This document shows positions 1-14,663 of a stretch of DNA of 64,000 bases, one piece after another. A program made the translations under genes and the position numbers. Every line of letters starts with the position of its first letter. The first letter of the stretch is position 1. The notes under the pieces are model-generated. The model did not search any database and was not told where the DNA came from. It saw only the letters and a program-made list of their open reading frames with translations. This DNA is from Burkholderiales bacterium (GTDB lineage Bacteria; Pseudomonadota; Gammaproteobacteria; Burkholderiales; SG8-41): positions 147,307-211,306 of the forward strand of contig JAIETP010000020.1 of the NCBI GenBank assembly GCA_019744975.1, written 5' to 3'.

Positions 1-722
1 GAGGTGTAGTGCGAAATCCACGGTTACTGACCCGCGATGTCATCGCGTTCTCAATTGAATTGACGGAGCCCTGTGATTTCGATGCGGGGCAGTTCATGGT
101 CGTGCAGGTTCCGGGCGTTTCCGGCTACCGCGGTTATTCGATGGTCAACTTCGAGCGCGGCGCGAAGCGGCTGGATTTTCTGGTCAAGAAAAAACCCGGC
201 GGCGGTGCATCTGAATGGCTGTTCAAGGGCGGTATCGAAGGCCAGTCTGTCGAGTGGTTCGGCCCCCTGGGTGCGGCGACGTTTTTCCCGGCGTTGGCCA
301 AGAATCTGCTGCTGATCGCTGGTGGCAGCGGCATTGCGGGAATGATGTCCATACTTTCCCGCGCCTGTCAGGAACACTATTTTGACCAGTATCACGGGTA
401 TGTGTTTTTTGGCGTGCGCGGCATGAAAGATGCGTTTTTTCTTCAAGAGCTGGCGCAATTCCAGAGTGAATTTCCGCAAAAGCTTGCAGTGACCATTGCA
501 CTGTCCGACGAAGATGCGCCTGTCGGAGTCTCCGATTATCCGGGTTTGATGTTTGACCGCGGCTTTGTTCATGAGGTGGCGGCGCGCCACATGAAAGGCA
601 AATACCAGAACATGCGTGCCTACCTCGCCGGACCGCCGCCGGCGGTTGATGCGGCGATTCGTGTGCTGCTGCTGGAAGCCAAGTTGACGGCGGACAATAT
701 CCGCTATGACAAATTCAGTTGA
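1..722 (+). CDS. Ferredoxin-NAD(P)H reductase component of a multicomponent (diiron-type) monooxygenase, 5' partial
   Basis: The reading frame is open to the window edge, so the start lies upstream. What remains is the FAD- and NAD-binding half of a ferredoxin-NAD reductase like the toluene 4-monooxygenase reductase TmoF. The FAD motif appears as GYRGYSMVNF near the N-terminus of the visible part, the NAD-binding glycine motif as LLIAGGSGIAGMM, and a family-typical AGPPPAVDA lies near the C-terminus (most relatives have CGPP there). In the family an N-terminal plant-type 2Fe-2S domain precedes this part; here it would be outside the window. It would move electrons from NAD(P)H to the Rieske ferredoxin encoded next, whose frame overlaps or follows within 10 bases. 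The hydroxylase subunits are not in the window and may lie upstream. Confidence 0.85.
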   Translation, partial: GVVRNPRLLTRDVIAFSIELTEPCDFDAGQFMVVQVPGVSGYRGYSMVNFERGAKRLDFLVKKKPGGGASEWLFKGGIEGQSVEWFGPLGAATFFPALAKNLLLIAGGSGIAGMMSILSRACQEHYFDQYHGYVFFGVRGMKDAFFLQELAQFQSEFPQKLAVTIALSDEDAPVGVSDYPGLMFDRGFVHEVAARHMKGKYQNMRAYLAGPPPAVDAAIRVLLLEAKLTADNIRYDKFS

Positions 723-729
723 GAGCGTG

Positions 730-1461
730 ATGCCGAGAACATTGATATGCAAGCGCTCTGAAATTCCGGATAACGGATTGAAGGAGTGCGTTACTCAAAG
801 CGGCCTCAAGGTGCTGGTGGCTAACGCGGGCAACGAGTATTTTGCCTGTCAGGCGACTTGCCCACATCAGGACGTATCGCTGTGCGAAGGTCTTTTTGAC
901 GGGTCAGTGCTGACCTGTCATCAGCATCTTTGGCAATGGGATATTCGCACCGGTGCGGCAATCGGGTTGGCCGAGTCGCCGCTCGAATGCTACAAGATCG
1001 AGATTGATAGCGATTTCGTTTACATCACCGCGGGTGGCGATGCACTCGATGTGGGAGAACTTTTTTTAGGGATCGCCGGCAATACGCTGGAGAGCATCAA
1101 AGCGCTGGCACAGCGCCGGGAAATGCAAGCCGGCGGAACCCTCTATGGCATCGGCGATCCGGCGGATGATTTTTTCGTACTGGAGTCTGGACGCATTGAA
1201 TTTGTGATCGGTCGCGATGATCGTACCAGCCCCGCCGGATTTATGCTGCGCAAAGGCGAAGTGTTTGGTTGGGCGGCATTGCTCGACAGCCAACCGCAGC
1301 GCATTGCCAAGGCGACCTGTCTGGAGCCGTCAGTGCTGCTATGCATCAATGGCAAACAGGCGCTCAAGGTTCTGGAGTCTGACCCGGCGGCGGGCTATGT
1401 TGTAATGCGCAGACTGTCGTCATTGATTGCCCGTTACCTGGCGCCATCGGGCGCCAAATAG
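730..1461 (+). CDS. Rieske ferredoxin fused to a cyclic-nucleotide-binding domain
   Basis: The protein has 243 residues from the ATG at 730. A longer start at 706 overlaps the reductase gene but has no ribosome site, whereas GAGAG precedes 730. Residues 1-105 are a TmoC-type Rieske ferredoxin: C44-x-H46 and C63-x2-H66 are the 2Fe-2S ligands, separated by 16 residues. Residues about 115-235 form a CRP-like cNMP-binding fold with a phosphate-cassette-like stretch GEVFGWAALL followed by QRIAKA, whose Arg matches the phosphate-contacting Arg of the family. It presumably shuttles electrons from the reductase to an oxygenase. The fused sensor domain is unusual; it could gate electron transfer or anchor the protein to a partner. 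The gene end contains an inverted GGCGCC repeat. Confidence 0.85.
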   Translation: MPRTLICKRSEIPDNGLKECVTQSGLKVLVANAGNEYFACQATCPHQDVSLCEGLFDGSVLTCHQHLWQWDIRTGAAIGLAESPLECYKIEIDSDFVYITAGGDALDVGELFLGIAGNTLESIKALAQRREMQAGGTLYGIGDPADDFFVLESGRIEFVIGRDDRTSPAGFMLRKGEVFGWAALLDSQPQRIAKATCLEPSVLLCINGKQALKVLESDPAAGYVVMRRLSSLIARYLAPSGAK

Positions 1462-1549
1462 AGAAAGAAAGGTTTTGTTGCTGCATCACATAATAATACT
1501 AAATAACTGTTTTAATTGATTTTTGCAGTGCCTACCAAAGGAGGTTGTC

Positions 1550-2683
1550 ATGAAATCTGTAAAGCGATTAATGAAGTTCCTTGGCGCCGCAGTTGTGGGT
1601 GGAACGTTGTTCATGAATAACGTGAGTGCTGCAGATATTGATTTTGGTAAACCTGGAACGCCGATCAAGCTGGTGATCGGCTATCAGCCGTACTACACCC
1701 AGGCGTGGTCTGGCGTAATCATGCGCGGCAAGAAATTTTACGAAAAATATCTGCCCAAAGGTTCGGAGGTTGAATTCCAGATCGGTTTGCAGGGTGCGAT
1801 CATCGTCAACAATATGCTGGCCGGAAAGCAGCATATCGGTTACATGGGCGACATGCCTTCGATTGTATCGACCACCAAGCAGGAAGTAGCAGATGTCCGC
1901 ATCGTCGGCACTCTGGGCCTCGGCCACGACCAGTGCAATATCTTTCTGGTGCGCACGGATGCGCCAAAATTCAACACTCCGGTCGATGCGATCAAATGGT
2001 TGAATGGCAAGCAGGTTGCCGTACCCAAGGGCAGCTGCACAGATCGGTATGCGCAGGCCGTATACAAAAAATACAACGTGCAGCCTGCAGCCTATCTCAA
2101 CCAGAATATTGAGGTGATCACAAGCAATTTCCGCGCCGGAAAAATTGACGCGGCGGTGATCTGGGAGCCCACTGCGTCCCGTCTGGTGCAGGAGGGGCTG
2201 GCGCGCCGGGCCATCACCGGAGTTACGCCGCAGGAAAATGACGGCGGCTTTCTGGCGATGCGGGCTGATCTCATCAAGCAACGTCCGGACATCGTCAAGG
2301 CCTGGATGAATGCCGAGCTCGACGCGCAGTTGTTCATTGCCGACAGCAAAAATGCCGGGGAAGTCATCAAAATTGCCAAAGAGCAGACCACAGGTTTTAC
2401 CGACAAGGTGCTGTGGAGTTCGCTGTATGGTTTGTATGGTGCGGATCAGGACGGCAGCAAGGTGCGTAATCAATTGCATTACACGATTACGCCCCAGGCT
2501 CGTGAACTGCTCACCCGCGCCACCGCGTTCCTGTTTGAAATCAAGAGCATCAACACCGCTGTGCTGCGCCCGGAGGCAGTCATGCCTGAATTTGCCGAGG
2601 CAGTGCTCAAGGAACGCAAACTCACGGCGCCAATCGGTGTTGTGAATGCCTTGCCGGAATCAGCGTTCAAGCCGGCCAATTGA
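1550..2683 (+). CDS. ABC transporter substrate-binding protein, NitT/TauT (SsuA/NMT1-like) family
   Basis: The start at 1550 is fixed by a strong ribosome site AAAGGAGG at 1537-1544. The 377-residue product begins with a signal peptide (two basic residues, a hydrophobic run, cleavage near VSA-AD). The mature part has the features of nitrate/taurine/aliphatic sulfonate binding proteins: KLVIGYQPYY at the mature N-terminus, GLQGAIIVNNMLAGKQHIGY as the typical ligand-loop region, and GKIDAAVIWEPT later. It would capture a small anionic or methylated substrate in the periplasm for the permeases encoded downstream. It is the only binding protein for two permeases and two ATPases. An imperfect terminator follows it, which would give more binding protein than membrane components. 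Substrate unknown. Confidence 0.85.
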   Translation: MKSVKRLMKFLGAAVVGGTLFMNNVSAADIDFGKPGTPIKLVIGYQPYYTQAWSGVIMRGKKFYEKYLPKGSEVEFQIGLQGAIIVNNMLAGKQHIGYMGDMPSIVSTTKQEVADVRIVGTLGLGHDQCNIFLVRTDAPKFNTPVDAIKWLNGKQVAVPKGSCTDRYAQAVYKKYNVQPAAYLNQNIEVITSNFRAGKIDAAVIWEPTASRLVQEGLARRAITGVTPQENDGGFLAMRADLIKQRPDIVKAWMNAELDAQLFIADSKNAGEVIKIAKEQTTGFTDKVLWSSLYGLYGADQDGSKVRNQLHYTITPQARELLTRATAFLFEIKSINTAVLRPEAVMPEFAEAVLKERKLTAPIGVVNALPESAFKPAN

Positions 2684-2688
2684 CAGGC

Positions 2689-2722
2689 AAGGGCCGGCCG
2701 GCAGCAGGGCCGGCTCTTGTTT
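2689..2722 (+). terminator. Terminator-like attenuator between binding protein and permease genes
   Basis: AAGGGCCGGC at 2689-2698 pairs with GCCGGCTCTT at 2709-2718 (ten pairs, one G-U) around a 10-base loop, followed by GTTT. Such partial terminators are common behind binding-protein genes of importers. A pair of 8-bp direct repeats GCATGCGC follows at 2741-2748 and 2757-2764. Confidence 0.5.
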
Positions 2723-2793
2723 GCCCCATTGCAGTCTATGGCATGCGCGTTTACAAGCATGCGCCGAGAACTCAACGAAGAAGGTAACCGTTA

Positions 2794-4137
2794 ATGGAGC
2801 CGGACGCACAGTCGGTCGAGGTTGAGCGGATGCTGGAAATCCTCCGGAAAACGATGCCGTTTCAGATGGTGTCGGACGCCCTGCTGCGCAGGATCGCCGC
2901 GTTAGGGAGGCAGGAACGCTACGAGCGTGGAGCGGTGCTATACGATCAGGGCGACAAGGCTGGCGATATTTACATCGTCATCTCGGGCAGTGTTGAGCAC
3001 GCGCTCGAACCGGGGATCAATGCCCGGCGGCCGGTGCAGGTGCTCGGGGCAGGCGATGTTTTTGGATGGGCGGCACTGCTGGAAAAATACCCGCATCGGC
3101 TGGCAAAAGCCGTAGTGATGGATGTCGCCGTGATTGTGCGTATCAACGGTGACGAGTTGTTGCGTTTGCTGGAAGCGGATCCGGACGCAGGTGATGTAGT
3201 CATGAGCCGTTTTGCCACCATGATCACGCGCGATTACACGGTGCCGGATTTGATCGCACAAATGCGGGGGATTCATCGCAAGATGCACTCACAAGACATC
3301 CAGGGGATGAATCTCACGCTTTACCGCATCTTGCAGTGGATCAAGAGCCCGCGGCCGTATTTGATGGTGATCGGGATCGCGCTCTTCCTCGGCACTTGGT
3401 ATCTTTTTGTCGAAGTCTGGAAGCTGCCGCGGTTTCAGGAGATGCCGGGACTCACGGTTGTTCTCAAGGAGTGGTTGAACCCGAATCCGGTTTACGGACT
3501 GTCACTCTATACCGCGGAATATTACAAACATATTGGAGTCAGTATCTGGAGGGTTGCCCAGGCTTTTTTCCTGGCGACGGCGCTGGGTGTGCCGCTTGGG
3601 CTGTTTCTGGGATGGTCACGCAAGTTCAAGGAATATGTGTTCCCGGTGTTTGAAACACTGCGGCCGATTCCGATTCTGGCCTGGGTGCCGCTGGCAATCG
3701 TCATGTTTATTGCAACGGAATCCGCTGTCATTTACCTGACATTTCTTGCGTCGTTTTTTGCAACCGCGCTCAATACCATGCTCGGAGTGGAATCGATTGA
3801 AGAATCCTATGTGCGTGCTGCCTACTGCCTCGGCGCCAAGAAGTGGCAGGTTTTCAGACACGTTATTGTTCCTGGTGCATTGCCGTTCATTTTCACCGGC
3901 CTGCAGATATCCATCGGTGTGGCGTGGTTTTCCCTGGTCGCCGCAGAAATGGTTTCCGGGCAATACGGTCTGGGATATGTGATCAATACGTCCTATACCA
4001 TGGTGCGCTATCCAACCATTATTATCGGCATGATCACACTTGGAGCGGTGGGTTATGTCACCAGCGCCATGGTACGCATCTTGGGTGACTACCTTATGCA
4101 ATGGCGGGTGCGCGAACTTGCACTCGGGGGGCAGTAA
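2794..4137 (+). CDS. ABC permease with N-terminal cyclic-nucleotide-binding domain (fusion)
   Basis: This 447-residue protein joins two modules. Residues about 15-150 are a CRP-like cNMP domain with GDVFGWAALL (87-96) and the cassette Arg at 102. Residues about 185-447 are a BPD_transp_1 permease of the NitT/TauT type, beginning with the membrane segment around LMVIGIALFLGTWYLF and containing the ATPase-coupling loop AAYCLGAKKWQVFRHVIVPG. Ordinary members of the family are about 260-290 residues, so the sensor is an added domain on the cytoplasmic N-terminus. The stop codon touches the next start (TAAATG). The arrangement suggests that transport activity is gated by a nucleotide or a related ligand. 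The same domain is found on the Rieske ferredoxin upstream and alone at 10.6-11.1 kb. Confidence 0.85.
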   Translation: MEPDAQSVEVERMLEILRKTMPFQMVSDALLRRIAALGRQERYERGAVLYDQGDKAGDIYIVISGSVEHALEPGINARRPVQVLGAGDVFGWAALLEKYPHRLAKAVVMDVAVIVRINGDELLRLLEADPDAGDVVMSRFATMITRDYTVPDLIAQMRGIHRKMHSQDIQGMNLTLYRILQWIKSPRPYLMVIGIALFLGTWYLFVEVWKLPRFQEMPGLTVVLKEWLNPNPVYGLSLYTAEYYKHIGVSIWRVAQAFFLATALGVPLGLFLGWSRKFKEYVFPVFETLRPIPILAWVPLAIVMFIATESAVIYLTFLASFFATALNTMLGVESIEESYVRAAYCLGAKKWQVFRHVIVPGALPFIFTGLQISIGVAWFSLVAAEMVSGQYGLGYVINTSYTMVRYPTIIIGMITLGAVGYVTSAMVRILGDYLMQWRVRELALGGQ

Positions 4138-4998
4138 ATGGCAACCATGACCCAGAACATGTCACCAGCCGCAAAAGCGACGCGTGGCGCCATCAAGATT
4201 GATGACGTGGTCAAAATTTATGATCCTGCGGGCGCAGCGGTGATGGCTGTTGATCACTGCTCCCTGGATATTGCCGCAGGCGAAATCTGCATGATTGTCG
4301 GACCATCTGGCTGCGGCAAAACGACATTGCTCAATGCCATTGCCGGGTTTCATGAAATTACCTCCGGCCGGATCCTGCTCGACGGCGAAGTGTTATGCAG
4401 CACTGAAAAGCCCAAAGCCGAGCCTGGCTCTGACCGGATTGTCGTCTTTCAGAACGGGGCACTGCTGCCCTGGAAGACCAATCTTGAGAACGTCGCTTTT
4501 GGTCCGTTGATGCAGGGGAAACTCTCCCGGGCGGAAGCCCACGAAAAAGCGCTGTCGATGATGGCAGATGCGGGGCTGTCAGGCGTTGAGCACAATTATC
4601 CGGGGGAAATATCGTCGGGGATGCGGCGTCGCGTAGAGATCGTGCGGGCGCTGATGAACGATCCCAAGGTGCTTCTGCTCGATGAACCCTATCGCGCGCT
4701 GGATTCACTGACCAAGTCGGTGATGCATGAGGCATTGCTGGAAATTTATTATCGCAACAAAGTGACCATATTCTTCATTACCCATGATCTGGAAGAGGCG
4801 ATCTTCCTGGGCCACAAGGTGGTGATCATGACTACACGGCCATGTAAACCGAAAAAAGTGCTTGAAGTGGATATCCCGCACCCACGTGATTACAGCGTGT
4901 TGACCTCGAAACGGTTCCGCGAACTGATTGAAGAGACCAACGATGCGGTGCATGAGGAAGCGCTGAAGGCGTTTGCCGCAGGCGAAAAAGAGGGCTGA
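4138..4998 (+). CDS. ABC transporter ATPase 1 (NitT/TauT type) with degenerate signature motif
   Basis: The product has 286 residues. Walker A is GPSGCGKTT, Walker B is VLLLDEP and the switch histidine is present in FFITHDLEEA. The signature motif, normally LSGGM/Q, reads EISSGMRRR, with a Ser in place of the first Gly, and the D-loop region is YRALD rather than FGALD. An extra N-terminal stretch of about 20 residues precedes the usual start of the fold. It lies immediately behind the fused permease and 3 bases before the second permease. With ATPase 2 it is predicted to form a heterodimer in which this subunit supplies the intact Walker A, Walker B and His of the competent site. Confidence 0.85.
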   Translation: MATMTQNMSPAAKATRGAIKIDDVVKIYDPAGAAVMAVDHCSLDIAAGEICMIVGPSGCGKTTLLNAIAGFHEITSGRILLDGEVLCSTEKPKAEPGSDRIVVFQNGALLPWKTNLENVAFGPLMQGKLSRAEAHEKALSMMADAGLSGVEHNYPGEISSGMRRRVEIVRALMNDPKVLLLDEPYRALDSLTKSVMHEALLEIYYRNKVTIFFITHDLEEAIFLGHKVVIMTTRPCKPKKVLEVDIPHPRDYSVLTSKRFRELIEETNDAVHEEALKAFAAGEKEG

Positions 4999-5001
4999 GC
5001 A

Positions 5002-5871
5002 ATGGCAAGCAGAAAATGGGGCGGTACATTATTTTGGCGCGGAGTGCTGTCAATTGCGGTGTTTCTCACCTTGTGGGAAATCGGATCGCTCTCCAAGGTA
5101 TGGTTGAAGTGGGAGATGTTTGCCTGGCTGAAGGAAATGCTGATATTGACAGGCTGGACCAAGAACTACCTGCCCTGGATTGGTGCTATCCCGGCACCGA
5201 CGGAGGTGCTGGTCGCGTGGGGCAAGGTCATTGGCGATGTGGGGTACTGGCACAGCTGGTACATGAGCTGCTTCCGTGTTTTGGGCGGTTTCATCGCTGC
5301 CATGGCCATTGGTATTCCATTCGGATTGCTGCTGGCGGTTAACCGTACCGCATTCGGAATCGGATTTCCGGTGTTTGAAGTGTTGCGACCGATCCCGCCA
5401 CTGGCCTGGGTGCCGGCATCAATAATCTTCTGGCCGACACAGGAATTGTCGATCGCATTTGTGACCTTTTTGGGGGCTTTTTATACCATTGTGATCAACG
5501 TCATCGGTGGAGCACGCTCAATTGATACGCGATACTTCCAGGCTGCGCAAAGCATGGGCTCCTCATCATGGGATATTTTCCGGCGCATCATCCTTCCAGG
5601 CACCTTGCCGTCAATCGTGGTTGGATCTGCGGTGGGCATGGGCATTACCTGGGAGGTCGTGGTGGCCGCTGAAATGATCTCCGGTGGAGGCAGTCAGATC
5701 GGAGGCACCAGCGGCGGCGGACTGGGATTTTTCATCTGGAATTCATATGTAGGCGGGTCCTATGAGCAGATTGTCGTCGGCATGATCAGCATTGGTATTG
5801 CCGGATTCCTGTCCAGCGAATTGCTGCGCGCATTGGGTCATCGCGTGACACCGTGGCTACGTTTGCGTTAA
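5002..5871 (+). CDS. ABC transporter permease 2 (NitT/TauT type)
   Basis: This 289-residue inner-membrane permease has five to six hydrophobic segments and the ATPase-coupling loop AAQSMGSSSWDIFRRIILPG. Unlike permease 1 it carries no cNMP domain. Its N-terminal part holds an unusual insert between the first two membrane segments (about residues 30-65). It follows ATPase 1 by 3 bases and is followed by ATPase 2 after 13 bases, so all components are probably co-translated. A Gly-rich periplasmic loop (ISGGGSQIGGTSGGG) sits before the last segments. Together the two permeases and two ATPases could make one heteromeric importer; two separate importers sharing a binding protein is the alternative. 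Confidence 0.85.
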   Translation: MASRKWGGTLFWRGVLSIAVFLTLWEIGSLSKVWLKWEMFAWLKEMLILTGWTKNYLPWIGAIPAPTEVLVAWGKVIGDVGYWHSWYMSCFRVLGGFIAAMAIGIPFGLLLAVNRTAFGIGFPVFEVLRPIPPLAWVPASIIFWPTQELSIAFVTFLGAFYTIVINVIGGARSIDTRYFQAAQSMGSSSWDIFRRIILPGTLPSIVVGSAVGMGITWEVVVAAEMISGGGSQIGGTSGGGLGFFIWNSYVGGSYEQIVVGMISIGIAGFLSSELLRALGHRVTPWLRLR

Positions 5872-5884
5872 TTGGGAGCGGCAC

Positions 5885-6757
5885 ATGGACGAAAGCGGTG
5901 TTGTCAGGCAAAAAATAGAAGCGGGCGAGATTGCCGTCGAGAATGTGGATAAATCCTACGGCAGTCATCATTTTCGCAAAGAAGTGGTGAGGAACTGCTC
6001 ATTCAAGATTGAGCGGGCCAAGTTGACGGTGATGATCGGCCCCTCAGGTTGCGGCAAATCGACGCTGATCCGCCTGCTTGCTGGTTTCGAAAAACCAAGC
6101 GCTGGAGCGATCACCCTTGATGGCCATCCGATTGCCGGACCTGATCGCGATCGGCTGGTCTTGTTCCAGGAATCGGCATTGTTTCCGTGGATGACCACTT
6201 ACGACAATATTCTCTACGGACCGCGGGCGCGTGGTGAAGTTACCAAAGAGACACTGGAGCTTGCCGAATTCCTGCTGGCCAAGGTCGGGCTCAAGGAGTT
6301 TCGTAAAAAATACCCCACCCAGCTCTCGGGCGGGATGCAGCGGCGCGCCGAACTCGCGCGCGCCATGATCAACAATCCCCGGGTCATGATTCTTGATGAG
6401 CCGTTCCGCGGACTCGACGCGATGACCAAGGAGCTGATGTGGGAATACTATTCAGCACTGTATGAAGAGAATCGCCGTACAAATTTTTTCGTGACTACAG
6501 ACATTGATGAGGCGATTTTTCTCGCCGACCGGTTGTTAATCATGTCGAATATTCCGACCCAGGTTCGGGCGACACTGGAAGTAGACATACCGCGACCGAG
6601 AAAACTCGCGGATATCGTCGAAAATGATCGCGCCAACGAAATCAAGATGCAGGCGTTGTCGATCCTGCATGAAGAAGCGATGAAGTCGTTTTCCCGCGGC
6701 AGCAAGGCCGCCGCTGATTTTGTCGAGGCTTATTCGAAGCGTTCGGTCAAAACATGA
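5885..6757 (+). CDS. ABC transporter ATPase 2 (NitT/TauT type) lacking the switch histidine
   Basis: The product has 290 residues, preceded by GGGAGCGGCAC. Walker A GPSGCGKST, the canonical signature QLSGGMQRR and Walker B VMILDEP are intact. The switch (H-loop) histidine is replaced: the segment normally reading VTHDIDEA reads VTTDIDEA (codon ACA, near base 6498). The defect is complementary to that of ATPase 1, which has a damaged signature but an intact His, so one composite site of a heterodimer would be fully canonical and the other degenerate. The stop codon overlaps the next gene by ATGA. The C-terminal 50 residues extend beyond the minimal ATPase fold, as is usual in this family. Confidence 0.85.
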   Translation: MDESGVVRQKIEAGEIAVENVDKSYGSHHFRKEVVRNCSFKIERAKLTVMIGPSGCGKSTLIRLLAGFEKPSAGAITLDGHPIAGPDRDRLVLFQESALFPWMTTYDNILYGPRARGEVTKETLELAEFLLAKVGLKEFRKKYPTQLSGGMQRRAELARAMINNPRVMILDEPFRGLDAMTKELMWEYYSALYEENRRTNFFVTTDIDEAIFLADRLLIMSNIPTQVRATLEVDIPRPRKLADIVENDRANEIKMQALSILHEEAMKSFSRGSKAAADFVEAYSKRSVKT

Positions 6758-6948
6758 GCGCCATCGACGGTCTGCTGACACGGGAGGCAATGATCGTGCT
6801 GGCAGTGCTGGGGGCGATTGCATCTGTGGCGGCATCAGTATCACGCTCCAGATTTGGCGAGTATCGGGCACGCCAGCTTGACTATGCCGGCTACGGCTGC
6901 ATGGCCGCAAGCATGCTTATTTTCATCGTCAACGGTTTTCGCTCCTGA
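6754..6948 (+). CDS. Small membrane protein, 64 residues, unknown
   Basis: The start overlaps the stop of ATPase 2 in an ATGA arrangement, which argues for translational coupling. The sequence has two hydrophobic segments, around residues 13-28 (IVLAVLGAIASVAAS) and 46-61 (YGCMAASMLIFIVNGF), separated by a basic, polar stretch (SRSRFGEYRARQLDYAGYG). I do not recognise a family. Its place at the end of the transporter genes suggests a small accessory subunit of the importer, but this is inference. Confidence 0.6.
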   Translation: MSAIDGLLTREAMIVLAVLGAIASVAASVSRSRFGEYRARQLDYAGYGCMAASMLIFIVNGFRS

Positions 6949-6994
6949 ACCCATTGAGTTTCATCTGCGCGAATTACGGGCGTATTACCCAACC

Positions 6995-7882
6995 ATGACT
7001 GCGAAAATTATTGATGGCAACGCCGTTGCCAGACACGTCCGGCGGGAATGGGCAAAACGCGTGGATACGCTCAAGGCGGACGGTGTGATCCCGGGACTTG
7101 CCGTCATTATCATCGGCGACAATCCGGCTTCCAGAATTTACGTGCGCAACAAGATCAAGGCCTGCGCTGATGTGGGCTTGCATTCTGAAATCCACGAATT
7201 TCCGGAGATTGTTGATGCGGAAGAAGTGATTCACCGCATTCAAAAACTCAACCGGAATCAGGCCATTCACGGCATTCTGGTGCAGTTGCCGCTACCGCGG
7301 CATCTGGAGGCACGCAGGCTTCTCGGGGAAATTTCCGTTGACAAGGATGTTGACGGTTTTCATCTCTACAACGTGGGTGGTCTGGTGGTGGGGGAAAACA
7401 ATATCTTCCCACCGTGCACGCCCTATGGTGTGCAAAGTCTGCTGGAATACGAAGGTATTCCGATTGAAGGACAGAATGTGGTGGTGGTGGGGGCAAGCAA
7501 TATCGTCGGCAAGCCGATGGCGTTGATGTTGATGGCGAAAGAAGCCACGGTATCCATCTGCCATATCAAAACGCGCGATCTGGCGCAATACACCATACTT
7601 GCCGATATCCTGGTGGTCGCGGCAGGCTGTCCCAATCTGATTACAGCACCCATGGTCAAGCGCGGGGCGGTGGTGATTGATGTCGGGATCAATCGGCTGT
7701 CTGACGGACGTCTTGCCGGCGATGTTGATTTCGATCGAGTCAAGGAAAAAGCGGGCTATATCACTCCCGTTCCGGGCGGCGTGGGACCGATGACAGTCAC
7801 CATGCTGATATGTAATACTGTGGCGGCTGCCGAACGCAATGTCGCCAAAAATGCCGGAAACACAAGTCCCGTCACTGTTTAA
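6995..7882 (+). CDS. folD: Methylene-tetrahydrofolate dehydrogenase/cyclohydrolase, copy 1
   Basis: The 295-residue protein converts 5,10-methylene-THF to 10-formyl-THF with NADP. Start chosen at the ATG giving MTAKIIDGNAVARHV, which matches the FolD N-terminus; the frame is open further upstream but that part is not FolD. The catalytic Tyr and Lys are in YVRNKIKA, the substrate-site Gln in GILVQLPLP, the Asp in DKDVDGFH, and the dinucleotide loop in GASNIVGKP. The C-terminus has the family signature PVPGGVGPMT. All key residues are canonical, so it should be active. It lies 46 bases behind the small membrane protein and 16 bases before a second, divergent folD. A folD in a catabolic cluster usually serves oxidation of one-carbon units. 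Confidence 0.93.
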   Translation: MTAKIIDGNAVARHVRREWAKRVDTLKADGVIPGLAVIIIGDNPASRIYVRNKIKACADVGLHSEIHEFPEIVDAEEVIHRIQKLNRNQAIHGILVQLPLPRHLEARRLLGEISVDKDVDGFHLYNVGGLVVGENNIFPPCTPYGVQSLLEYEGIPIEGQNVVVVGASNIVGKPMALMLMAKEATVSICHIKTRDLAQYTILADILVVAAGCPNLITAPMVKRGAVVIDVGINRLSDGRLAGDVDFDRVKEKAGYITPVPGGVGPMTVTMLICNTVAAAERNVAKNAGNTSPVTV

Positions 7883-7898
7883 TCGCTTTTTCTGATTC

Positions 7899-8783
7899 AT
7901 GCCCGCCTTGATTCTCGATGGCGTGGCTATCGCCCGTCACGTCTATGCCAGTCTCAAACCGCGCATTGCCGCGCTCGTGCAATGTGGCGTGCAGCCGGGT
8001 CTTGCCGCCCTGCAAATTGGTGGCAATGCCGCATCGCGCCTCTACGTGCGCAATAAAGTCAGGGCTTGCACGGAAATCGGCATTTATTCGGAAGTACACC
8101 AACTCGATGCAGATTGCACGGAGACTGCGGCACTCACGATGCTGGAACAGCTCAATCGCAATCCGCGCCTGCATGGTGTGATCGTACAGCTGCCATTGCC
8201 ACCGGGCTTCGATGTCCGGCGGTTGCTGCAATCGGTTGCCATTGAAAAGGATGTGGACGGGTTCAACTGGAGCAATCTGGGCGGGCTGGTGGATGGGCAC
8301 GGGGGATTGAAAGGATTGACACCGTGTACGCCTTTGGGCGTGGTGACGATGCTTGACCATGCCGGTATCACGATCGAGGGCCGTCATGCCGTGGTCATCG
8401 GGCGCAGTCCCAGTGTCGGCAAATCGATGGCCTTGCTGCTGATCAATCGCGGTGCAACGGTCACGGTGTGCCACTCGAAAACCCCAGATCTGACGGCCCA
8501 CGCGTTTCGCGCCGACATTCTGATTGCGGCAGCTGGGCGTGCCGGCCTGGTGACTGCCGACATGATCAAGCCTGGCGCTGTGGTGATTGACATCGGGATC
8601 AACCGCTTGCCGGACGGCAGGCTTGCGGGCGACGTAACTTTCGCAGCCGCGTGCGAACGGGCATCGTGGATTACGCCGGTGCCGGGCGGAGTGGGGCCGA
8701 TGACGGTGGCCATGCTTATCGCCAACACGGTGACCGCGGCGGAGCGTACTGCAGGTTTGCGGGCACCATCTGCGGTCGTTTGA
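7899..8783 (+). CDS. folD: Methylene-tetrahydrofolate dehydrogenase/cyclohydrolase, divergent copy 2
   Basis: This 294-residue paralogue lies directly behind copy 1. It keeps the catalytic Tyr/Lys (YVRNKVRA), the Gln (GVIVQLPLP) and PVPGGVGPMT. Two changes stand out: the segment DKDVDGFH of typical FolD reads EKDVDGFNWSNLGG (His to Asn), and the nucleotide loop reads GRSPSVGKS, with Ser where Pro is usual. These might alter cofactor preference or the balance between dehydrogenase and cyclohydrolase activity. Sequence divergence between the copies is too great for a recent duplication. The gene converges with the GcvT-like gene, 7 bases from its stop. Confidence 0.9.
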   Translation: MPALILDGVAIARHVYASLKPRIAALVQCGVQPGLAALQIGGNAASRLYVRNKVRACTEIGIYSEVHQLDADCTETAALTMLEQLNRNPRLHGVIVQLPLPPGFDVRRLLQSVAIEKDVDGFNWSNLGGLVDGHGGLKGLTPCTPLGVVTMLDHAGITIEGRHAVVIGRSPSVGKSMALLLINRGATVTVCHSKTPDLTAHAFRADILIAAAGRAGLVTADMIKPGAVVIDIGINRLPDGRLAGDVTFAAACERASWITPVPGGVGPMTVAMLIANTVTAAERTAGLRAPSAVV

Positions 8784-8790
8784 AACGGTT

Positions 8791-9876
8791 TTAAGCCTGC
8801 CGGGGCAAATGCCGGCCGGGATCATAGAACGGCAGGTGTGCGACTCGTGCGGGAATATTTCCGGCAATCTTTACTGACACCCCAGGATGACGGTCCGCGG
8901 TCGCGACGTAACCCATTGCGAGCACGCGTTGGAATAACGGCGAGCGGCACAGGCTGGTGACTACGGCCGTTGTTTCCGTGTTGGTGGAAGGTTTCGCCAG
9001 TTCATTGAAATCCGCACCCTGCGCCATCTCCGGCAGAAGTCCGACCAGTTGCCTGGCGGGCAACTGCCAGTGCAGCCGGCGCAACTCAGATAATCCAATA
9101 AAATCAATAGGATACATATCCACGAAACGCGACAGCCCGAGTTCGAATGGCGTCACCGGGATCGCCAGTTCGCAAGTGAATAATATGTAGCCGGCTTCGA
9201 TACGCAATGAATTGGCGGCGTCGAATCCGCACTCCTGCAATCCCTGGGGCGCACCTGCCCGGCGCAGCGCCTCCCACAATGCCGGACCATCCCGCGTGCG
9301 CACGACGATTTCATAACCCAGTTCACCGCTGTAACCGATACGCGATATCCAGCACGCGGCTCGCGAAAATCGGGCAGACCAGCAATCAAAGTAGGACAAG
9401 CGGGCGGGCATGTCAGTCAGGCATGCCGCGACAATGCTGGATGAGCGAGGCCCCTGGACTGCGATGACCGCATGATCATCGGATCGGTCAGAGATGGTGA
9501 CATCGAAATTTTCAGCGATGCTGCGCACATGCTTCAGATCGGCTCGGCGCCCGATGAACAGCGCATAGCGCCCGATGCCGATTGCCCATACCGTGGCATC
9601 GTTGAGCACGGTGCCGTCCTCGCGCAGCAGCAGTGTGTAGGCGATGCGCCCGGGGCGCAGTGATGAGAGGTTGCGCGTCTGCAGTCGATGCAAAAAAGAG
9701 AGACTGTCCGGGCCAGTGATTTCTGCGCAAGCCATGAAAGAGAAATCGAACATGCCTGCCGCGCGACGCGTCGCCAGATGTTCGGTGGCAGGGTCAGTGA
9801 ATTGCCGTGGCGTACGCACGCCCGGTGTCAGCTCGAATTGATTGATCCGGCGCGCGTTGAAATATTCTTGCAGCAC
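8791..9876 (-). CDS. GcvT-like tetrahydrofolate-dependent aminomethyltransferase/demethylase
   Basis: The protein has 361 residues from a GTG start preceded by AAGGCGGG; a TTG 24 bases further upstream, overlapping the TauE gene, is the alternative. The fold is that of the glycine-cleavage T-protein family: FFHRL/LHRLQTRN-type N-terminal region (SLSFLHRLQTRN), ISRIGYSGELGYEI in the middle, and SLRIEAGY before the C-terminal domain. The segment that reads GG-(V/I)-x-D-D in true T-proteins reads GTVLNDATVWAIG, with Asn in place of the first Asp. No P, H or L proteins of glycine cleavage are nearby. Relatives of this kind include folate-dependent demethylases such as DmdA and LigM, so methyl-group transfer from a substrate to THF is a reasonable guess, not a proof. 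Confidence 0.8.
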   Translation of the reverse strand: MLQEYFNARRINQFELTPGVRTPRQFTDPATEHLATRRAAGMFDFSFMACAEITGPDSLSFLHRLQTRNLSSLRPGRIAYTLLLREDGTVLNDATVWAIGIGRYALFIGRRADLKHVRSIAENFDVTISDRSDDHAVIAVQGPRSSSIVAACLTDMPARLSYFDCWSARFSRAACWISRIGYSGELGYEIVVRTRDGPALWEALRRAGAPQGLQECGFDAANSLRIEAGYILFTCELAIPVTPFELGLSRFVDMYPIDFIGLSELRRLHWQLPARQLVGLLPEMAQGADFNELAKPSTNTETTAVVTSLCRSPLFQRVLAMGYVATADRHPGVSVKIAGNIPARVAHLPFYDPGRHLPRQA

Positions 9877-9886
9877 GGCACCCGCC

Positions 9887-10645
9887 TTAAGACCACCCAA
9901 GTGTGCGCACGATCAGGTAGGCACCGACCACGATGCACAATACGGCAACAAATTTTCGCAGTGTATCCGCGTTGATGGCATGAACGATGCGTGTGCCGAG
10001 GAACACACCGGCGATTTCCAGCACTGTCACCACGCCAGCGACGCCGAAGTTGATTGTACCGAACTGCAGATTGCCCAGCGTTCCCGAAGCGGCGGCAATG
10101 ATCTGGATGACCTGGCTGGTAGCGATGGAGGCGAGCACCGGAAAACCGAAAAGCACCATCATCGGTACTGACAGCGCGGGGCCACCGACACCGGTGAGTC
10201 CTGAGCCGAAACCTGCCGCTGCGCCTATGCCCAGAAGCAATCCCTGTTGCGCCTGCGGACGTGCCTGCAATGCAGGGCGCGGCAACCCGCGCCAGGTGGC
10301 GAGTGTATATACCCCGGCAAAAATGATGACGCTGGCAAGTATCAGTGCGAGCATGGACGGCCGGGCAAGTGAATTCATCCATGCACCAAGAAAAGCGCAG
10401 AACATGGCGCCGGCACAGACCGGCACGGTAATGCGCCAGTCGATGCTGCCATGGCGCTGAAACAGGACGGTGCCGGTGATGCCGGTGAAAATGAAGGTAA
10501 AGAGGGCGGTTGCCATGGCTTCGTGGAGACCGAGGCCGGCAAATGCCGAGAGCGCCGGAATCAACAGTACACCGCCGATACCGACCGCGCCGATCAGCAC
10601 GCCGACGACGAGGGCGGTCGGTGCGAGCAGTAGCCAGTCGGTCAA
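9887..10645 (-). CDS. TauE/SafE family (DUF81) membrane permease
   Basis: The 252-residue protein has eight or so hydrophobic segments and the two family repeats: GVLIGAVGIGGVLLIPAL near the N-terminus and GSGLTGVGGPALSVPMMV after the central polar loop. The start is TTG, 3 bases after the preceding cNMP gene, so the two genes are tightly coupled. Members of this family are proposed exporters of sulfite, sulfoacetate or other organic anions. Together with a taurine/sulfonate-type importer in the same locus, this makes a sulfur-containing substrate possible, but family members also occur in loci without sulfur chemistry. Confidence 0.85.
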   Translation of the reverse strand: MTDWLLLAPTALVVGVLIGAVGIGGVLLIPALSAFAGLGLHEAMATALFTFIFTGITGTVLFQRHGSIDWRITVPVCAGAMFCAFLGAWMNSLARPSMLALILASVIIFAGVYTLATWRGLPRPALQARPQAQQGLLLGIGAAAGFGSGLTGVGGPALSVPMMVLFGFPVLASIATSQVIQIIAAASGTLGNLQFGTINFGVAGVVTVLEIAGVFLGTRIVHAINADTLRKFVAVLCIVVGAYLIVRTLGWS

Positions 10646-10648
10646 ACG

Positions 10649-11113
10649 TTACCCGGAAGCAAAAGACGTGAGATTGCCGGTAATCAATGCATTCAACTGC
10701 TGCATGATCCGGTAACCCAGAGTGTGATCCTGATCCATGAGAACCAGCAATTGGTCGCCGTTGATGGCGATCACTGTGCAAGGGGTGATGGCGAGTGCTG
10801 CGGCAATGCGCTGTTGGGCGGTTTCCACCAATGCGGCCCAGCCAAAAAGTTCGCCGCGTTTGAGAATCTGGCCGGCGTGCGTCTGGCGATTGCCGAGACC
10901 GATGGTGAAGCGCACCATGCCGTCAACCAGCACATAAAAATCGGCGGCCTGATCCCCCAGGTCGTAGATGTGGTTATCCTGCGGGTAGTGCTCGACGCGG
11001 CCGAGCGTGGATACCTGCCGGATCTGCTGTGGAGTCAGGGCACTGAAAAACGCCGTCTGCGCGAGGATGCCCGCGCAGTCGGCGTGATCGGCAAGTGCGT
11101 CAGGCGGGCTCAT
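10649..11113 (-). CDS. Stand-alone cyclic-nucleotide-binding domain protein
   Basis: The 154-residue protein consists of one CRP-like cNMP domain and nothing else: no DNA-binding helix-turn-helix follows. The cassette reads GELFGWAALV with an Arg six residues later in QQRIAAA. FGWAAL is shared exactly with the domains fused to the Rieske ferredoxin (730-1461) and to permease 1 (2794-4137). It lies between the PanB-like and TauE-like genes, with spacings of 13 and 3 bases. Being without an effector domain, it could act as a partner for the fused domains, or regulate the TauE-like permease. Function unknown. Confidence 0.8.
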   Translation of the reverse strand: MSPPDALADHADCAGILAQTAFFSALTPQQIRQVSTLGRVEHYPQDNHIYDLGDQAADFYVLVDGMVRFTIGLGNRQTHAGQILKRGELFGWAALVETAQQRIAAALAITPCTVIAINGDQLLVLMDQDHTLGYRIMQQLNALITGNLTSFASG

Positions 11114-11126
11114 GCAGATCCCGCAG

Positions 11127-12032
11127 TTACCCGCCTGCGGGGAAACGCTGGTTCGGATTGCCTTTCCAGCCCACCAGGTCGGCGAATTTTTTCAGTTCAT
11201 CGTCCTTCATGTACACCGAATGTTCCTTGCCGGGGTAAATACGCTTGCGTACTTCGTCGCGATAATCCGTGAGGCCTTTTTCGATGATCGGCACCAGATC
11301 AACGTAAATCTTGGAGTGGCGTGGAACGTGTTTTTCATAAAGATGGAACAGGTCGGAGCCGATGATATGAACGCCATCGGCCTGGTTGCCCGCACCGAGG
11401 CTGATCACCGGTACCGGCAGCACTTCGGAAAGGTATTGGCAGACTTCGGCCGTTGTCACTTCGCACATGATCGAGAAGCAGCCGGCATTGACCATTGCCC
11501 AGGCGTCATCCACCAGTTCCTTGGCGCGATCCGCCGTCTTGCCCTGCGCGACAAAACCACCCAGTTGCGGCATGCGCATGGGAGTAATGCCGATATGGCC
11601 CTGCACCGGAATGCCGGCTTTGATGATGGCTTCGATGTACTTGGCGTGGTGTTGATTGCCTTCGCACTTCATCACTTCTGCGCCGGCCTGTGACACGTAC
11701 TTCGCTGCATTGTCCACAGCTTGCTGCGCCGACAAGTGAAAGCTCATGTAGGGCATATCGACCATGCGCAGCCCGTACTGCGATCCGCGCTTGACGGCCT
11801 GCGCCATGAACATGACTTCTTCAAACGAAACCGAAGTGGTGCTTTCGTGTCCGAAGAGCACCATGCCGCCGGTGTCGGACACACACAGGATATCAACCCC
11901 GACGCGGTCGGCGATGATCGCGGTCTCGTAGTCATACACCGCGAGTTGGACGATGGGTTCCTTGTTCTCACGCTTCTTGTTCAGTGACGGAATGGTCACT
12001 TTCTTGCGTTTTTCGGCGGCTTGTTCAGCCAT
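11127..12032 (-). CDS. Divergent PanB-like (ketopantoate hydroxymethyltransferase family) protein
   Basis: The 301-residue protein starts at an ATG with AAGGAGG seven bases upstream. It aligns along its whole length with PanB, which adds a hydroxymethyl group from methylene-THF to 2-oxoisovalerate. The metal-binding Asp residues appear in VSDTGGM and VDMPYM, the substrate-site Lys and Glu in MKCEGN, the catalytic Glu in MCEVTT, and the GAGN turn in SLGAGNQADG. It differs from housekeeping PanB by an N-terminal basic extension of about 25 residues and a C-terminal extension after GKEHSVYMKDDE. No panC or panD is near, and folD genes are. It may therefore be a catabolic or substrate-modifying homologue that exchanges a one-carbon unit with THF. 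It is preceded by a sigma-54 promoter. Confidence 0.75.
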   Translation of the reverse strand: MAEQAAEKRKKVTIPSLNKKRENKEPIVQLAVYDYETAIIADRVGVDILCVSDTGGMVLFGHESTTSVSFEEVMFMAQAVKRGSQYGLRMVDMPYMSFHLSAQQAVDNAAKYVSQAGAEVMKCEGNQHHAKYIEAIIKAGIPVQGHIGITPMRMPQLGGFVAQGKTADRAKELVDDAWAMVNAGCFSIMCEVTTAEVCQYLSEVLPVPVISLGAGNQADGVHIIGSDLFHLYEKHVPRHSKIYVDLVPIIEKGLTDYRDEVRKRIYPGKEHSVYMKDDELKKFADLVGWKGNPNQRFPAGG

Positions 12033-12076: not shown

Positions 12077-12092
12077 AGCAATCCTTATGCCA
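12077..12092 (-). promoter_or_regulatory. Sigma-54 (-24/-12) promoter for the PanB-like gene
   Basis: On the minus strand the sequence reads TGGCATAAGGATTGCT. The GG of the -24 element and the GC of the -12 element are exactly 12 bases apart, as in TGGCAC-N5-TTGCW. Transcription would start near 12066, giving a leader of about 35 bases before the ATG at 12032. The gene immediately upstream on the same strand encodes a sigma-54 activator, which supports the call. The promoter would drive the panB-like, cNMP, TauE and GcvT-like genes. Confidence 0.75.
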
Positions 12093-12210: not shown

Positions 12211-13635
12211 TCAGACTGACGCCGCGGGCGCGCGTTGCGCGCGTGATCCCGAACGTTTCAGCCCCCAGCGGTTGCGTCGCACCCAAAGCGCTTTGCGGCC
12301 GATGCCGAGCATGGTCGCCAGTTCGGAATCACTGTGCGCATGCTGGTAACGCCGCACGAACTCTTCAATGTATTTTTCGATTGACAGCGAACGGCTCAAG
12401 GCATCGCCGGAGAATTCGTCGGCTGGCTTCGCCTTCGCCTCCACGGCAGAGGTGTCGTTAAAATCCTTGCTGGTCAGTATTTCGCTGTCGGCGAGGATTA
12501 CCGCACGCTCAATCAGATTTTCCAGTTCACGCACATTGCCGGGCCAGCGGTATTTGTGGAGGAAATGCCGAAGCTCATCGCTCATGCCGGTGATGCGTTT
12601 GCCGAGACGGCGGCTGTGATGCTCAACAAAATGACGCGCGAGTATGTCCACGTCGTCACCCCGTTCGCGCAGCGGCGGTACGTTGATGTTGATGACATTC
12701 AGGCGGTAATAGAGGTCGGCACGAAAAGTGTTGTCTTCCATTGCCTGTTTCAGGTCGCGGTTGCTGGCAGCGAGAAAGCGCACGTCGGTGCGATAAACAT
12801 GTTTGGAGCCCAGCGGTCGGACCTGTTTTTCCTGGATGACACGCAGCAGCTTGACCTGCAATGCCGGCGCCAGCTCCGAGATTTCGTCGAGGAACATGGT
12901 GCCGCCGTGCGCCTCGCGCAGCAGCCCTTCGGATGCGGTTACGGCACCGGTGTAAGCGCCTTTGACATGTCCAAACAACTCTGATTCCAGCAGATCTGCG
13001 GGGATGGCGCCGCAATTGATCGGCACGAACGGCCCCTCGGCGCGCGGACTCGCATAATGTATGGCTTGCGCCACCAGTTCCTTGCCGGTACCGCTCTCGC
13101 CGTGGATCAGTATGCTGGCGTCGGAGGGGGCAACCCTGGCAATCAGTGCATGCACATGTTGCACACCGGTTGATTTGCCAATGATTTTGTTGGTACCGGT
13201 CACTTTTTTGAGGCTTCTTTTCAGCAACACGTTCTCGCGCCTGACACGGCGTTCGGCGAGCGCGCGTTCCACGGCATGGCGAAAATCGTCATTGCTGAAC
13301 GGTTTGATGATGTAGTCGATGGCGCCGCTGCGCAGTGCTTCGATGGCGGTGTCGATGGATGAAAAACTGGTCATCAGGATCATCGGCAGATCAATGCCGG
13401 CTTCACGCACGCCGCGGATGATCGACAGGCCATCCTGATCAGGCAGCCTCAGGTCGGTTACCAGAAGATCAAAGTCGCCGGAGACTGCGCGCAGCAGTCC
13501 TTCAACGCCCTGGCTTACCAGCTCGACCTGGTATGCCGCAGAAGACAGCAACAGACGCACCGTTTCGCCGACCCCGGGGTCATCCTCGATAACGAGGATA
13601 CGTTCATGGCGCTGTCCCTGTGCTGTTGTGTTCAT
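12211..13635 (-). CDS. NtrC-family sigma-54-dependent response regulator
   Basis: The 474-residue protein starts at the ATG that shares its A with the kinase stop codon (TGATG); a longer open frame upstream is not part of it. Residues about 11-125 are a receiver domain with the acidic pair ED(18-19), phospho-acceptor D61 and K111. Residues about 150-380 are the AAA+ sigma-54 interaction domain with Walker A GESGTGKE (179-186), the GAYTGA loop (226-231, a common variant of GAFTGA) that contacts sigma-54, and the GTMFLDE Walker B. A Fis-type helix-turn-helix closes the protein (SELATMLGIGRKALWVRRN). It is the obvious candidate to activate the -24/-12 promoter 120 bases downstream. Confidence 0.93.
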   Translation of the reverse strand: MNTTAQGQRHERILVIEDDPGVGETVRLLLSSAAYQVELVSQGVEGLLRAVSGDFDLLVTDLRLPDQDGLSIIRGVREAGIDLPMILMTSFSSIDTAIEALRSGAIDYIIKPFSNDDFRHAVERALAERRVRRENVLLKRSLKKVTGTNKIIGKSTGVQHVHALIARVAPSDASILIHGESGTGKELVAQAIHYASPRAEGPFVPINCGAIPADLLESELFGHVKGAYTGAVTASEGLLREAHGGTMFLDEISELAPALQVKLLRVIQEKQVRPLGSKHVYRTDVRFLAASNRDLKQAMEDNTFRADLYYRLNVININVPPLRERGDDVDILARHFVEHHSRRLGKRITGMSDELRHFLHKYRWPGNVRELENLIERAVILADSEILTSKDFNDTSAVEAKAKPADEFSGDALSRSLSIEKYIEEFVRRYQHAHSDSELATMLGIGRKALWVRRNRWGLKRSGSRAQRAPAASV

Positions 13636-14663
13636 CAGGCGCGCCGCTCGTGCGCCGGCAGCATGACGGTGAAGCAGGCACCACCTTCCGGATGATTGTC
13701 GGCGCACAGGCTGCCGCCGTGCTCGGCGACGATCTCGTTGCAGATGGCCAGTCCAAGGCCGGTGCCCTGGCCTGCGGGTTTGGTGGTGAAAAAGGGCTCC
13801 AGCAGGCGCGGCAGATGCCCCGGCGCGATGCCCGGTCCGGAATCGCGAACGCTGATTTCGACACGGGCGCCTTTTTTTGCGCATGCCGCAACCAGAATGC
13901 GGCCATTGCCGTTCATGGCCTGGGCTGCATTGAGCAGGATGTTGAAAATGACCTGTTCCAGCTGATCGGCAACCCCCATGATCCACAAATCAGGCTCGAT
14001 CGATTGTTCAACCGCGATGTTGCGAAAAAGCGCGTGTTGTTGCGTGTTTTGCAACGCTTCCGTAACGGGCTGGCCGACAGAGAGCAGCGTTTTTTGGTCG
14101 ATTCCGCTGCGCGAAAAATCGTTCAGCCTGCGGGTGATATTGAGTACACGCTGGACGTTTGCCGCAATATTGGTCAGGCCGCGTTCAAGGGTATCCGGCT
14201 GCAGAGATCCGCTTGACTGCAGCAGTTGTACCATGGAGTGGATTGCAGTGAGCGGATTGGATACCTCGTGACAAACACCGGCTACCATGAAGCCGAGTGA
14301 TGCGAGGCGCGCGGTCTGAGCGCTGCCGAGATCGAATTCCGAGCCGGTTCTTTCGGTGATCAGCATGCACGCGCCCAGCGGCAGACGACGCACACTGACG
14401 CGTTGTTGGGCGCCGGTCTGCAGATTGCGGGCGTCCACATCCTGCGGCGTGAGCCACGGCGGCGTTCCCTGCAGCGCGTTGTAGAAATGCGGGCAAACCA
14501 CAGACAGATGAGCCCCGGCCTGAATTTCCGGCAGGTGACCTTGCGCCTTCATCTGGTGGTTGATGAAGGTCACTTCCCCCGACTCGCTGACCAGCAGCGC
14601 CGGCCATGGCAGTCCGTCGATAAAGGATGCCAGTATGTCGCTGATGTCGGAAAACGCATTCAC
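13635..14663 (-). CDS. NtrB-like soluble PAS sensor histidine kinase
   Basis: The 342-residue protein has no membrane segment, so it should sense a cytoplasmic signal. A PAS-like domain covers about residues 8-105. The phosphorylation motif is CHEVSNPLTAI with H132. The ATPase part shows the N box (NILLNAAQAM), G1 (DSGPGI) and G2 (GTGLGLAICNEIV) motifs. It is the partner of the NtrC-like regulator that overlaps it by one base, and is transcribed after the MFS gene and a small membrane protein. The signal may be an intermediate of the pathway encoded here. Confidence 0.9.
   Translation of the reverse strand: MNAFSDISDILASFIDGLPWPALLVSESGEVTFINHQMKAQGHLPEIQAGAHLSVVCPHFYNALQGTPPWLTPQDVDARNLQTGAQQRVSVRRLPLGACMLITERTGSEFDLGSAQTARLASLGFMVAGVCHEVSNPLTAIHSMVQLLQSSGSLQPDTLERGLTNIAANVQRVLNITRRLNDFSRSGIDQKTLLSVGQPVTEALQNTQQHALFRNIAVEQSIEPDLWIMGVADQLEQVIFNILLNAAQAMNGNGRILVAACAKKGARVEISVRDSGPGIAPGHLPRLLEPFFTTKPAGQGTGLGLAICNEIVAEHGGSLCADNHPEGGACFTVMLPAHERRA

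Follow-up and report, generated by a model that had tools for sequence, protein, structure and literature searches.

A cyclic-nucleotide-binding-type domain shared by a Rieske ferredoxin, an importer permease and a free-standing protein in a methanesulfonate-monooxygenase-like locus

Why should one type of sensor domain be carried by an electron-transfer protein, by a membrane subunit of a transporter and by a small protein on its own, all within a single locus? The question is raised by a 64,000-nucleotide stretch of a Burkholderiales bacterium genome (contig JAIETP010000020.1, positions 147,307 to 211,306), hereafter called the window. In this window, a CRP-type cyclic nucleotide monophosphate (cNMP)-binding domain is present at the C-terminus of a Rieske ferredoxin (R, 730-1461), at the N-terminus of a NitT/TauT-type ABC transporter permease (P, 2794-4137) and in a free-standing protein (L, 10649-11113). 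The architecture is conserved in relatives, and we propose, with confidence about evenly balanced between acceptance and doubt, that the three domains sense one acidic metabolite and tune substrate uptake and the supply of electrons post-translationally, in addition to a sigma-54 two-component system encoded nearby.

All three proteins scored above the gathering cut-off of PF00027 (27.5 bits) in Pfam searches: R with 54.4 bits (cNMP_binding, 1.3e-14, accompanied by a Rieske match at 5.9e-12), P with 53.3 bits (2.7e-14, accompanied by BPD_transp_1 at 7.5e-27) and L with 53.5 bits (2.3e-14). For R, the start at 730 is favoured because M9 of the longer open reading frame (ORF) starting at 706 is at least 90% conserved among 38 sequences; the Rieske ligands C52, H54, C71 and H74 are invariant (38/38) and correspond to the CXH...CXXH ligands of PF00355. 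The genome itself has 18 PF00027 matches. When compared by blastp with the ORFs of these 18 loci, the R, P and L domains were mutual best matches (88.6-95.5 bits), the next-best partner scoring 51.2 bits for P, 40.4 for L and 38.1 for R. A profile built on the trio matched 13 of the 18 loci and gave no match to the other 5, and the FGW motif was confined to the three domains of the window locus. These data bear out the original prediction that a single cassette is used three times, each time with the Arg that contacts the nucleotide phosphate in CRP-type domains, and that a fourth cNMP domain of the window lacks this Arg: the latter belongs to a cNMP-CBS-DUF294 protein (40000-41907), reads GECFSVGALLEQRQVLAPYT and has neither the FG nor an Arg in register. 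R and P are a new architecture built from known parts.

Is this arrangement found elsewhere? With R as query, 51 loci were collected (L019-L069), a sample in which R-positive loci are over-represented; the counts given here refer to 46 of them (L019-L064) and the window, L065-L069 being left out because the cNMP part alone matched. Both R and P are fused in 33/47 loci, and in 5/47 R is fused while P is not covered or seen as a fragment only. The domain is missing from both proteins in three loci (L057, L061 and L064), from R only in two (L058 and L059) and from P only in one (L024); three others have a bare R and no P was seen in them (L060, L062 and L063). With P as query, matches were obtained in 10/74 genomes of the family, 8 of these extending over the cNMP part. 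A profile of the domain detected, in 399 genomes of the order, 31 domains scoring at least 155 bits, which are distributed in 11 genomes; one domain in one of these same 11 genomes scored 99 bits and the rest at most 84.5 bits. In all of these 11 genomes, one of which is the window's own, the domain occurs both on a Rieske protein and on a permease, and 8 of the 11 also have L (the identity of the Rieske, permease and lone proteins was checked in the 10 other genomes, and by Pfam in the own genome). A phylum-wide sample of 397 genomes yielded the set only in the own genome and in one genome already in the order sample, a third genome giving a single match at 72.9 bits. In both scans the best 10 candidates per genome were scored, draft genomes may conceal an L or a P, and the genome samples and the loci are not independent (G014=L019, G196=L025, G379=L034, G458=L038, G043=L024, G071=L058 and G004=L057). 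Within these bounds, the two fusions co-occur and are conserved. Strains with these proteins include Thiobacillus thioparus DSM 505, Methylibium sp. Root1272 and Glaciimonas immobilis DSM 23240. The titles of L031, L033, L057 and L058 name Anaerolineales, Rhizobium and Bordetella parapertussis; as L031 and L033 sit among Thiobacillus-type rows, and L057 and L058 among window-type rows, these are probably mislabelled or contaminated contigs of metagenome-assembled genomes (MAGs).

A phylogenetic tree, from which one cut R domain (L055) was left out, grouped the 38 R rows in one clade (support 97/97), the 13 L rows in another (99/96) and the 36 P rows with two P-like lone proteins in a third (100/99); an unevenly supported split (100/70) separates the 90 FGW rows from 16 generic ones. 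Since R, L and P fall in separate clades, the duplications that gave rise to them probably predate the divergence of these lineages and were not repeated in each locus. The fused state is probably the older one in L057, L058 and L059, because their bare Rieske domains nest among fused ones, several of the forks being weakly supported. Three variations were encountered. Extra P-like lone cNMP proteins are encoded at L038:4332-4994 (= G458:C265), between the genes for 5-formyl-tetrahydrofolate (THF) cyclo-ligase and formate-THF ligase, and at L055:3913-4872. One permease ORF of 642 residues has two tandem FGW cNMP domains (L025:12031-13956 = G196:C33, L082:616-2541). Finally, a lone cNMP protein with FGWAAL and the Arg is encoded beside tryptophan-synthesis genes on a Dehalococcoidia-titled contig (L065:5813-6493), and FGW domains are therefore not confined to methanesulfonate monooxygenase (msm) loci.

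What might such a domain bind? Seven columns are invariant across 32 R, P and L rows: Y35, G50, G76, W77, R87, A89 and M122. The register with CRP was set by counting from the FG motif, not by structure alignment, and in this register we take the Arg and Trp columns to be the positions of the Arg that contacts the phosphate and of the Glu that contacts the ribose 2'-OH in CRP. Of the 86 R, P and L domains in the loci, 84 have the Arg, the two others being the R domain of L055, which is cut by the contig end, and the P domain of L059, which has His. The Trp, which the original prediction had overlooked, is present in 86/86 domains; several other cNMP domains of the genome keep Glu at this position. 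The residue after the Arg, Ser in CRP, is Ile, Val, Leu, Met or Phe. Among the marks of a canonical cyclic AMP (cAMP) binder, the Arg of the phosphate-binding cassette (PBC) is found and the Glu is not. In CRP and NtcA, according to PMC12937710, the acidic group of the ligand (cAMP and 2-oxoglutarate, respectively) is contacted by the Arg and Gly of the PBC. Both residues (G76 and R87 in the counted register) are invariant in the 32 rows, as in an NtcA-like acid sensor. With the Arg-Gly pair retained and the Trp replacing the Glu, the predicted acid clamp is kept and the predicted ribose determinant is gone, and the pocket resembles that of an acid sensor of the NtcA type more than that of a cAMP binder. 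An AlphaFold2 model of R (predicted local distance difference test 83.5, predicted template-modelling score 0.60) comprises two domains and a C-helix (residues 227-245); Foldseek neighbours of the second domain include GlxR-cAMP, Clr-cAMP, CRP, NtcA with 2-oxoglutarate and the lone protein 3mdp. The model of P (predicted template-modelling score 0.43), of which the membrane part was not used, has a helix at residues 130-146.

Which pathway would be sensed? Alpha, beta, ferredoxin and reductase genes are present together with an ABC transporter of the methanesulfonate (MSA) type, all assigned by sequence, which is the gene set of an MSA monooxygenase (MSAMO). TauE, GcvT and PanB genes are also found near msm in Filomicrobium, according to PMC4433239. 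The same source regards a 26-residue spacer as the mark of proven MSAMOs, names proteins with a 17-residue spacer (X17) from Methylibium, Methyloversatilis, Ralstonia, a Rhodocyclaceae strain and Thiobacillus, and reports that its authors know of no hard data for X17 proteins acting on MSA and doubt such annotations. The alpha subunit of the window has an X17 spacer and not the CXH-X26-CXXH of MSAMO (X26 was found in L042, L047, L060, L062, L071 and L072); because of this spacer, and of the lack of hard data on MSA for X17 types, the locus is msm-like and is not filed as MSAMO. The methanesulfonate genes of Methyloversatilis universalis FAM5 counted among its silent genes under the conditions tested (PMC5023235). 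The best NCBIfam match of the substrate-binding protein (SBP) is TIGR01728 (aliphatic-sulfonate SBP), with 91.6 bits, below the curated cut-off of 163.5. An ordinary aromatic dioxygenase was considered and rejected: the NCBIfam matches are all below cut-off (the best, HcaE, with 113 of 830 bits) and the neighbours are TauE-family and folate genes.

Two loci with gammaproteobacterial MAG titles (L042 and L047) link both spacer types. There, X26 MsmA, MsmB and a bare MsmC precede a reductase, R, SBP, P and ATPase of the window types, which are respectively 61-62%, 54-56%, 63-64%, 62% and 80-81% identical to those of the window; this bare MsmC and its counterpart on a Methylobacterium nodulans plasmid, which also has an X26 alpha, form one group (100/99) (plasmid relatives served as comparison rows only). 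A transporter type that stands behind X26 enzymes in these loci and behind an X17 enzyme in the window probably carries the same substrate in both cases, which would be MSA. Regarding R itself, the closest solved Rieske sequence is T4moC (1.5e-25), and 8jng, an entry named methanesulfonate monooxygenase ferredoxin subunit, also matches (1.6e-5). No bare Rieske ferredoxin was seen in 36/39 loci with R (L042, L047 and L054 carry one too), and R is for this reason probably the working electron donor. In L054 the bare Rieske and Rieske-cNMP genes are in tandem (L054:5806-7032). Other duplications were seen in these loci: a second X17 alpha, 56-57% identical to that of the window, within the same locus (L028:3422-4816(-) and L023:1969-3288); two SBP genes, 67% and 47% identical to that of the window, between R and P (G438:C1:2537215-2539610, L139:1916-4311); and two SBP matches each in L032 and L035.

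Our proposal is that msm-like oxidation of one-carbon (C1) sulfonates, with ABC uptake, a Rieske oxygenase, sulfite export and folate-linked C1 handling, would be controlled by one CRP-type sensor domain, duplicated copies of which are found on the ferredoxin, on a single importer permease and in a free-standing protein. All three copies may sense the same acidic cytosolic metabolite; candidates are the substrate itself, sulfite, a folate and nucleotides with the exception of cAMP. Ligand binding on P would adjust uptake to the cytosolic acid, a direction of control that we infer by analogy with the regulatory domains of MetNI/ModABC; binding on R would modulate the delivery of electrons to the oxygenase or fix its location; and L may act on a third target, for which the linked two-component system with its sigma-54 activator is a candidate. 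We put forward more tentatively that FGW-type cNMP domains might constitute a new class of metabolite receptors, for a sulfonate, sulfite or a folate-C1 acid, forming a cassette dedicated to a single pathway, in which one signal would set uptake, the supply of electrons and a further target; the P-like lone copy of L038, with its two THF-related neighbours, hints at a folate-C1 signal. Thus, of the original suggestion that a common second messenger or ligand tunes uptake and electron supply together, the joint tuning is made plausible by the conserved reuse of the module, and a cyclic nucleotide as the messenger is weakened by the Trp in 86/86 domains.

Several observations weigh against this proposal. 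Each domain is dispensable in some relatives: G004 keeps L with a bare R and a bare P, G043 keeps the fused R and L with a bare P, G071 keeps P and L with a bare R, and G151, G379 and G438 have R and P with no L found. The P domain of L059 has His at the Arg position, and a pocket occupied by the Trp might accept no ligand. PF00211 cyclases are present in 13/13 genomes searched, which makes cAMP metabolically possible (the absence of cyclases, considered as a test against cAMP, was uninformative for this reason). Lastly, the X17 spacer of alpha and the published doubts on such proteins bear on the substrate.

The same losses also bear on the idea, also part of the original prediction, that the domains bind each other and tether transporter and oxygenase. 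An obligatory partnership of the three domains is rejected by G004 and by the genomes with R and P and no L; independent, mosaic loss is more easily reconciled with separate readers of a common signal than with an obligatory hetero-complex, and leaves room for pairing. In the tether reading, the domains would dimerise through a CRP-type C-helix and hold importer, ferredoxin and oxygenase near the membrane, L being a cap or adaptor and the Trp filling the pocket so that no ligand is needed. The invariant M122 in the C-helix region of three paralogous domains, the helices predicted in the R and P models, the tandem domains of one permease lineage and the existence of family members with a salt-bridge-filled cavity (PMC12937710) all speak for such a scaffold; we nevertheless consider it unlikely, given the mosaic states and the maintenance of an Arg-Gly pair that a filled pocket would not need. 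That the domain is a stabilising appendage with no regulatory role, spread by operon duplication and horizontal transfer, would account for the relatives that lack it on R, on P or on both, for the probable losses in L057-L059 and for the patchy distribution of the permease in the family. However, seven residues are invariant across three paralogue classes, both fusions are kept in most of the loci, and L042 and L047 retain R in addition to a separate bare MsmC, which makes this explanation improbable. Hardly to be expected, finally, is an ordinary sensor that binds cAMP or cyclic GMP in the usual way: the PF00027 fold, GlxR-cAMP and Clr-cAMP among the nearest folds, the PBC Arg in register and the cyclases in 13/13 genomes would suit it, but the Glu is Trp in 86/86 domains and the Ser of CRP is replaced as described above. 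In addition, the cNMP domain of the ABC protein HetC did not respond significantly to cAMP (PMC10986499).

The genes surrounding the three proteins are listed in Table 1. The operon is cut by the start of the window, and its upstream part was read from the own genome (L070). The L gene is separated by 13 nt from the preceding PanB-like gene and by 3 nt from the TauE-like gene that follows, and adjoins two-component genes in some relatives. Two FolD genes are in tandem (7004-8783); of the loci compared, L019, L022 and L057 alone gave a match to the second one. A sigma-54-type match was found upstream of the alpha gene in 20/39 loci versus 39/5000 random 160-mers, a comparison that is not a blind test since the pattern was loosened after a stricter one had matched 10/42 loci (in 3 of these 42 the alpha gene is cut by the contig start, without usable upstream stretch). 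Across the window, the exact -24/-12 pattern is not above chance (5 versus 3.5), and the case for sigma-54 rests on the matches upstream of the alpha gene.

Table 1. Features of the locus, by position in the window unless stated otherwise (aa, amino acids)
Feature	Position	Strand	Remarks
Rieske oxygenase alpha	L070:9954-11165, upstream of window		404 aa; Pfam
Oxygenase beta	upstream of window		152 aa; Pfam
MsmD-like reductase (2Fe-2S/FAD/NAD), C-terminal part	9..722	+	whole gene L070:11685-12722, start upstream of window
R, Rieske ferredoxin with C-terminal cNMP domain	730..1461	+	cNMP part about 1042-1455
Substrate-binding protein, SsuA/TauA type, MsmE-like	1550..2683	+	
P, MsmF-like NitT/TauT-type permease with N-terminal cNMP domain	2794..4137	+	cNMP part about 2824-3252
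ABC transporter ATPase 1	4138..4998	+	
Second ABC permease	5002..5871	+	without cNMP domain
ABC transporter ATPase 2	5885..6757	+	
FolD (methylene-THF dehydrogenase/cyclohydrolase)	7004..7882	+	
Second FolD-like protein	7899..8783	+	
GcvT-like folate-binding protein	8791..9900	-	
TauE/SafE (TSUP) family protein	9887..10645	-	
L, lone cNMP protein	10649..11113	-	154 aa; tightly packed genes PanB-L-TSUP-GcvT
Ketopantoate hydroxymethyltransferase (PanB) family protein	11127..12032	-	
Sigma-54-type -24/-12 element TGGCAT-N5-TTGC	12078..12092	-	46 nt upstream of panB-like start
NtrC-type response regulator (Response_reg + Sigma54_activat)	12211..13632	-	start approximate
Histidine kinase	13635..14663	-	

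If the acidic-metabolite proposal is correct, a single pathway would wire its importer and the electron donor of its oxygenase to the same sensor at the protein level, in bacteria possibly able to break down methanesulfonate, which is quantitatively important in the sulfur cycle. The small set of proteins, available in named strains, is suited to a ligand search for an atypical cNMP domain, and the relatives that have naturally lost domains provide controls.

How does the locus compare with known systems? It shares with msmABCD/msmEFGH of Methylosulfonomonas and Filomicrobium the alpha and beta subunits, Rieske ferredoxin, reductase, SBP, permeases and ATPase and the TauE, GcvT and PanB neighbours of the Filomicrobium cluster; it differs by the alpha spacer (17 residues versus 26). 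Published gene coordinates give 125 residues for MsmC and 295 for MsmF of Filomicrobium, which leaves no room for a cNMP domain, whereas the window has both fusions and a lone copy. Among the matches listed in open-licence PubMed Central literature, no Rieske-cNMP protein and no cNMP domain on an ABC importer permease was found, in agreement with the original prediction that these fusions are undescribed; cNMP domains on ABC and MFS transporters are, however, already described (HetC and, as mentioned in the review PMC10710835, MFS transporters), and what is new is that the carriers are an importer permease and a ferredoxin. NtcA, a 2-oxoglutarate-sensing regulator of the CRP family, has the same PBC Arg and Gly holding the acidic group of its ligand, as described above; unlike NtcA, the window domains have no DNA-binding domain, have a Trp after the Gly, and are found on a ferredoxin and a permease. 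The shell protein of Family 2B encapsulins and the lone cNMP protein 3mdp also exemplify cNMP domains outside transcription factors, channels and kinases, with unrelated partners, and when aligned with the R, P and L domains 3mdp lacks both the Trp and the Arg. Closer in design is HetC, a cyanobacterial ABC exporter whose N-terminal cNMP domain is required for function and is stabilised by ppGpp and GTP and not significantly by cAMP or 2-oxoglutarate, so that its ligand is apparently no cyclic nucleotide (PMC10986499); HetC is an exporter with its own peptidase and ATPase, while in the window the module lies on a separate importer permease subunit and is common with a ferredoxin. Importers with a fused regulatory domain are known from MetNI and ModABC, in which an extra cytosolic domain confers small-molecule control (PMC10710835). 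MetNI and ModABC carry this domain on the ATPase, whereas the window has a CRP-type domain on the permease.

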